A DNA stretch of 64,000 nt, from NCBI GenBank assembly GCA_020081605.1, contig JAHREC010000046.1:89725-153724 (forward strand). Direction: 5' to 3'. Below are positions 24,979 through 25,694 of the stretch, piece by piece. The position numbers and the translations under genes were made by a program. Below the pieces are notes generated by a model, which saw nothing but the letters and a program-made list of their open reading frames with translations, had not been told where the DNA came from and did no database searches. Within the stretch, counting starts at the first letter, position 1. The number at the start of each line of letters is the position of its first letter. This DNA comes from Albifimbria verrucaria. Lineage: Eukaryota; Ascomycota; Sordariomycetes; Hypocreales; Stachybotryaceae.

Positions 24979-25694
24979 ATGGCTCGAAAAATAGATTCGG
25001 CAATACCTCATGGAGCTCTTTACAATCAACGAGGCAATTGGCGACTTTTGAACTCTACCGGTAAATTCTTGTTATGCTTCATCATCACTGTACTGAGTAA
25101 CCGAAAATAGGTATTCCTCGTAAAAGTGCCCGCCCTGTCAGGGAAAGCTGGAGTTCGGAAACTACAGGCCAACAGACAAACGATGTTCCAGAGGGGATCC
25201 AGTGGAGCACGGCCCAAGTGACATCGGACCTGGAGGACAGAGGCGATGACAACATTACAGAGGGGAGTGAAGATTTCGTTTACGAATTGAGGGAAAATGA
25301 AAATATATCCCAGGAGAAGAATGATGCAGGACAGAAAACTAAGAAGCCCCATCGTTACAAACCCGGAACGGTCGCCTTACGTGAGATTCGTCGTTATCAG
25401 AAGAATACTGAGCTGCTTATCAGAAAACTCCCATTTCAACGCTTGGTAAGAAAACATCTAAAACATGCGATTGCTTTCTTATCTGTTCACTAGGTTCGGG
25501 AAATTGCCCAAGATTACAAGTGTGGCTTGCGATTCCAATCAAAAGCTATTGAAGCCCTTCAAGAATCGTGCGAGGCTTTTATAATTCGTCTTTTTGAGGA
25601 TGCCAATCTGTGTGCCGTGCATGCCAAGCGGGTAACAGTTCAAAGTAAGGATATACAGCTTGCTCGCCGCCTACGTGGTGAAGCCACAGAATAG
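24979..25694 (+). CDS. Histone H3 variant with extended N-terminal tail
   Basis: Three exons, 24979-25060, 25111-25445 and 25494-25694, with 50- and 48-nt introns and consistent phases, give 205 residues. From about residue 105 the sequence is a complete H3 histone fold: [65 protein letters not shown] and [12 protein letters not shown]. Loop 1 ([11 protein letters not shown]) has canonical H3 length, so this is not CENP-A. Positions equivalent to H3 K56, K79, K115 and K122 are kept, while several core residues differ. The tail is about 69 residues longer than normal, acidic in its second half ([15 protein letters not shown]), and lacks the canonical K4, K9 and K27 contexts. Only ARK (residues 2-4) and PRKSAR (30-35) recall them. 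It should package or mark chromatin in a specialised way. Confidence 0.9.

Follow-up and report, generated by a model that had tools for sequence, protein, structure and literature searches.

In fungi, accessory chromosomes are frequently silent and unstable and at times move from one strain to another; how they establish a chromatin state of their own is not settled. The histone H3 tail is among the most constrained sequences known. Habig and colleagues have reportedly found H3 homologues on an accessory chromosome of Metarhizium robertsii that is transferred horizontally. According to a meeting abstract and to a discussion passage in a further article, accessory chromosomes of Metarhizium encode H3 homologues together with histone-modifying enzymes (PMC12774646). 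Like the M. robertsii accessory chromosome as presented there, small contigs of the Albifimbria verrucaria assembly carry H3-family genes, together with SET-domain genes that may encode histone-modifying enzymes; they differ in having two intact H3 types and a third that looks decayed, in having cyclin genes alongside, and in belonging to a different fungus. The ITS of this genome appears hypocrealean and compatible with Stachybotryaceae (the former Myrothecium group), and its ITS1 does not seem to match that of Metarhizium. The Kmt6b/c encoded on accessory chromosomes of Fusarium oxysporum Fol4287 are K27 methyltransferases, whereas the gene studied here (H3A) encodes a histone, and the SET-domain gene beside a second variant (H3B) appears nearer to Set2/Ash1.

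The non-centromeric H3 variants of animals and plants (H3.3, H3.Y, H3t) have few changes in the alpha-2 face, positions 87-90 included, and H3A resembles them in its changed alpha-2 face. We know of no animal or plant H3 variant with an acidic insertion of 60 to 70 residues between K27 and K36. Among the titles and abstract openings listed for accessory-chromosome histones or cyclins, no cyclin on an accessory chromosome was found.

The window, i.e. the whole stretch of 64,000 bases that was analysed, comprises bases 89725-153724 of a contig of 153,724 bases (C34), which shows no telomere at either end. The assembly totals 48.41 Mb in 41 contigs, with 44.44 Mb in 11 large contigs (1.4-7.3 Mb) and about 3.97 Mb in 30 small contigs (11-359 kb). 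Since several small contigs begin with identical bases (C1/C2; C17/C18/C19; C7/C27; C28/C29/C32), the gene copies on small contigs may in part be assembly alternatives.

H3A is the histone H3 gene at window positions 24979-25694 (+ strand). As read from the sequence, it consists of three exons (82, 335 and 201 nt) with GT..AG introns of 50 and 48 nt, and encodes 205 amino acids. Exon 1 (24979-25060; 76 nt in both core H3 and H3B) translates with an intact MAR start, is lysine-free between residues 5 and 28, and ends in phase 1; it is followed by intron 1 (25061-25110; 50 nt, GTAAAT..ATAG, phase 1). Exon 2 (25111-25445), with its 335 nt versus 137 nt in core H3 and 128 nt in H3B, encodes a K27-like RKSA, an acidic insertion, K36/K37 (KKPHRY), alpha-N and the start of alpha-1 (Pfam Histone, 1.5e-12). 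Intron 2 (25446-25493; 48 nt, phase 0) lies between L and V of QRLVRE, and exon 3 (25494-25694) encodes loop 1, alpha-2, loop 2, alpha-3 and the stop (Pfam Histone, 2.5e-24). The two introns of the initial annotation hold at the sequence level: both coincide in position and phase with those of the genome's own core H3 gene (contig C13), and intron 2 of the centromeric H3 gene (CenH3) occupies the matching site (L and V of ARLVRE).

A near-canonical H3 fold had been proposed, and 83 of 98 core residues are indeed identical to the genome's own H3 (91/98 for H3B); the Pfam match of exon 3 agrees, and the top match in a search of solved structures was an H3.1 chain (query residues 103-203, E 3e-50). 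In a whole-protein search, the names shown among the matches listed (the best 120 of 7965) are those of animals. Residues 108-133 differ from core H3 at two sites only (I112V, I119V), and the residues for H4 pairing and H3-H3 contact are present, by which H3A is assigned to the histone H3 family from its predicted protein. H3A is like the core H3 of the same genome in fold, intron positions and from KKPHRYKPG onwards; it differs at 15 of the 98 core residues and in nearly the whole tail. A canonical or replicative H3 was ruled out by this rebuilt tail and the 15 core changes.

The two genes are separate loci with saturated synonymous differences, in agreement with the long independent evolution claimed initially. 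For H3A versus core H3, pS is 0.889 with dS saturated, pN 0.109 and dN 0.118, and for H3B versus core H3, pS is 0.807 and dN 0.063; the synonymous differences are inflated by composition (GC3 0.43 in H3A and 0.38 in H3B versus 0.80 in core H3). A well-kept fold with few replacements at saturated synonymous sites points to long-standing purifying selection on the H3A fold. A protein tree of 98 columns gave no resolution among H3A, H3B, core H3 and yeast H3.

The core changes of H3A are S57N, F78Y, S80C, D81G, S87K, G90E, V96C, S98A, Y99F, L100I, V101I, S102R, T107A, I112V and I119V. D81G had been listed correctly in the initial annotation; its T80C becomes S80C, the core H3 of this species having S at position 80. 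The S102R call is read against a core codon (TCN) with a missing base, which is S whatever the base. Twelve of the 15 changes, those at 87 and 90 included, fall within residues 78-107 (P 0.0006 for any 30-residue stretch with as many changes; 20,000 random placements). In the H3 of budding yeast, fission yeast, fly and Arabidopsis, 2/6, 3/7, 7/11 and 7/13 differences, respectively, lie inside the same stretch. The clustering in H3A is thus only partly special, because residues 78-107 are a generally variable face of H3.

The tail was initially given as about 106 residues, some three times the normal length; it is much longer than normal, with an exact count of 104 residues ahead of KKPHRY (Met counted) versus 36 in core H3. 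Of the 68 extra residues, 66 are encoded in exon 2. The description of the tail as half acidic was overstated: residues 36-104 (pI 4.05) contain 17 D/E and 5 K/R, and residues 1-102 contain 18 D/E. The new acidic stretch, with an approximate core at 25201-25327 (+ strand), lies between the K27-like RKSA and K36/K37 and is without detected relatives. A search with residues 1-103 against about 5.8 billion proteins, with shared five-residue words required, gave four candidates, none at E <= 10; the tail exon had no match in the genome outside contigs C31, C34 and C37.

Exon 1 encodes a single lysine (residue 4, Met counted); nothing corresponds to K9, K14, K18 or K23, and K4 is at best shifted, with its normal context gone. 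After intron 1, core H3 reads (A)RKSAP, the K27 context, and H3A reads (G)IPRKSARP; by intron position and motif, the RKSA of H3A (residues 31-34, Met counted) would be the equivalent of K27. The proposed absence of the K4, K9 and K27 contexts therefore stands for K9 and for the normal K4 context and seems not to hold for K27, given this K27-like motif. K36/K37 are retained within KKPHRY (K105/K106, Met counted).

H3A, H3B and a third type (H3C) occur only on eight contigs, which are 150-302 kb long; cyclin duplicates are present on seven of them as well. Profile searches of the genome, in which all counts are minimum values and assembly alternatives may be among the copies counted, placed on small contigs 18 of the 29 Histone matches (counted by exon; all 18 are H3 types), and on contigs below 360 kb 11 of the 18 Cyclin_N matches and 10 of the 24 SET matches. 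Matches to H2A, H2B and H4 are on large contigs, H4 with two gene-like places (C13, C8) and one weak match (C15). The SET matches are distributed over ten small contigs (C1, C2, C9, C17, C18, C19, C23, C26, C27, C37), with none on C31 or C34 in the same search; the one on C37 adjoins H3B. The profiles for JmjC, HDAC, KAT11, ASF1 and Scm3 gave no match on the small contigs. Because ASF1, Scm3 and HAT_KAT11 have one match each, on a large contig, a contaminating second genome as the source of the small contigs is not favoured, and all H4 matches on large contigs agree with this. Weak Chromo matches on C12, C30, C31, C34 and C37 may be transposon pieces. By their size, the stretches common between them and their gene content, the small contigs would be accessory. 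The initial suggestion was that such a histone could mark one chromosome or replicon as distinct; a link of H3A to a separate chromosome compartment is plausible because its small contig belongs to the class that carries other H3 variants.

H3B is found on C9, C17, C18, C19 and C37 as a gene of 571 bases that is identical in all five. Its tail retains K4 and K9 and has N in place of K27. The predicted losses of H3A and H3B appear complementary, with a K27-like site but no K4/K9 in the former, and K4/K9 but no K27 in the latter. On C9, a profile match revealed a SET-domain gene (C9:119165-120137) on the strand of H3B, some 0.8 kb upstream of it, and SET matches occur at a like place by H3B on C17, C18 and C19, and partly on C37. 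The C9 gene has an NHSCEPNC motif and a cysteine-rich end, and its nearest solved structure is SETD2, followed by ASH1L and NSD, by which the predicted enzyme is closer to Set2/Ash1; its reading frame is broken once in the copy that was read.

H3A is located between two cyclin genes. The cyclin W2 lies upstream (main open frame 21729-22583, + strand; Pfam Cyclin_N, 1.8e-30) and is 45% identical over 228 residues to a core cyclin (C15:4995097), which we take to be of the G1 type (CLN/puc1). The cyclin W1 lies downstream (exons 31173-31364 and 31421-32443, + strand; 404 amino acids; Cyclin_N, 2.9e-33) and is a paralogue of the same core cyclin (63% over 240 residues). In a comparison that left out the C10 cyclin, the three kinds of cyclin, one on C9 and two in the window, were nearer to the C15 core cyclin (79%, 63% and 45%) than to the C41 cyclin or to each other. 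Among solved structures, cyclins B1 and A2 matched the window cyclin best. Divergence runs in parallel between histones and cyclins, H3B (91/98) occurring with the 79% cyclin and H3A (83/98) with the 63% and 45% cyclins.

Among the other genes in the window, 25896-27035 (+ strand), just downstream of H3A, comprises open frames for a protein that is probably secreted and that, with a histidine closely following a signal-like stretch, brings to mind a lytic polysaccharide monooxygenase; it has no Pfam match. Two neighbouring long-frame genes (27479-28462 and 29469-30308, both - strand) are 45% identical to each other, have no Pfam match at E 1, and gave AlphaFold models of low confidence (mean pLDDT 41.7). 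Metabolic genes are found at 8115-11842, 14402-20000, 33274-36596 and 59490-59999, and comprise an alpha/beta hydrolase, an mpaB-type oxygenase, a family 18 glycosyl hydrolase, cytochrome P450s, a short-chain dehydrogenase and a flavin monooxygenase.

We propose, with a probability of roughly one in two, that H3A is a functional, nucleosome-forming H3 variant that resides in an accessory portion of the genome and helps to set the chromatin of that portion. Because the introns are shared, the gene would descend from the core H3 gene of an ascomycete, from which it split off long ago, and would later have been altered both in its tail and in the loop 1/alpha-2 face. The altered face may have changed the mode or place of deposition, because residues 87 and 90 belong to what we take to be the patch by which chaperones choose H3 for deposition in animals and plants. 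The change of the tail would remove the K9 methylation sites, most tail acetylation sites and the normal K4 context, and the acidic spacer should weaken contact between tail and DNA. Nucleosomes with H3A would then carry no H3K9 heterochromatin and probably no H3K4 mark, and the K27/K36 machinery could still read them. The likeliest role would be to assist the accessory compartment in setting its chromatin state and in staying expressed and being passed on; this proposal draws also on H3B, the Set2/Ash1-like SET gene and the extra cyclins in the same contig class.

A tentative alternative is that H3A works in trans, genome-wide, as a stage-specific or low-dose variant (in spores, on host contact or under stress) that loosens or resets the chromatin of core genes, its place on a small contig being incidental. 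The conservation of the fold is silent on the site of deposition, and the low GC3 of H3A would fit low or special expression; three H3 types without H2A, H2B or H4 matches, together with cyclins, on one contig class are, however, more than incidental. A broader form of the compartment reading, in which the accessory part builds a chromatin kit from the complementary H3A and H3B, the Set2/Ash1-like enzyme and the cyclins, and so gains its own chromatin identity and replication timing, is rather doubtful.

It is unlikely that the protein has a short tail, with the acidic stretch removed as part of a 269-nt intron 1 (25061-25329) and never translated, or translated only through alternative splicing. 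An in-frame acceptor does precede 25330 (first exon bases 25330-25332, + strand), and its use would join NSTG to QKTKKPHRY, resembling the canonical PSTGGVKKPHRY. However, it is the 50-nt intron that matches the core intron in position and phase and is followed by RKSA, and the introns of the genome's other H3 genes that were compared are shorter than 269 nt (57-63 nt in core H3 and H3B; 95 nt for CenH3 intron 2). Furthermore, the acidic stretch has no in-frame stop, a property found in 184 of 20,000 base-shuffled versions, and its codon score is coding-like. The 71 tail codons of exon 2 score 0.072 per codon; of 43 coding reference pieces (mean 0.049, sd 0.057) 25 score no higher, and of 42 stop-free noncoding pieces, which overlap one another (mean -0.037, sd 0.061), one reaches this score. 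The codon test is weak in other parts of H3A (-0.041 for the core part of exon 2; 0.042 for exon 3). The long tail is probably translated.

Still less probable is that H3A is a recent relic, i.e. a once-useful variant that is decaying on a shrinking accessory chromosome. Decay could be read from the H3A copy on C37, with two one-base deletions and three substitutions in its coding sequence (codons TCG, ATC and AAG; two silent, one altering I57), and from H3C (near 4531 on C17, C18 and C19, close to the start common to these contigs, and near 256323 on C12), which is strongly diverged and seems to have decayed, its frame being broken and a donor site missing in all four copies. The one-base gaps on C37 are likely assembly or sequencing errors, because the core H3 gene of the same assembly (C13:1619941) likewise has two gaps of one base (C13:1618500-1622500). 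H3A is present in three copies, and those on C34 (the window) and C31 are intact and identical in coding sequence; two such copies, and few replacements despite saturated synonymous divergence, argue against a relic.

A CenH3 paralogue for accessory centromeres is very improbable, in agreement with the earlier exclusion of CENP-A: the changes of H3A do sit in the loop 1/alpha-2 face, presumably the site where CENP-A is recognised, but its loop 1 has the canonical length without the insertion (RFRPQGKDFRW) of the genome's true, separate CenH3 (C41:1570155), its identity is 66/96 to CenH3 versus 83/98 to core H3, and Scm3 is single.

Accessory-encoded H3 homologues as such have already been reported for Metarhizium. 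As far as the literature was covered, through titles and parts of abstracts, the tail architecture, the complementary losses of K27 and K4/K9 in two variants, and the cyclins alongside seem to be new. H3A would demonstrate that an H3 can have its tail rebuilt and yet retain the fold, and accessory-encoded H3 variants with complementary tail sites would make the question of a separate chromatin setting directly testable. If the proposed reading is true, it hints that a dispensable part of a genome may shape its own chromatin.
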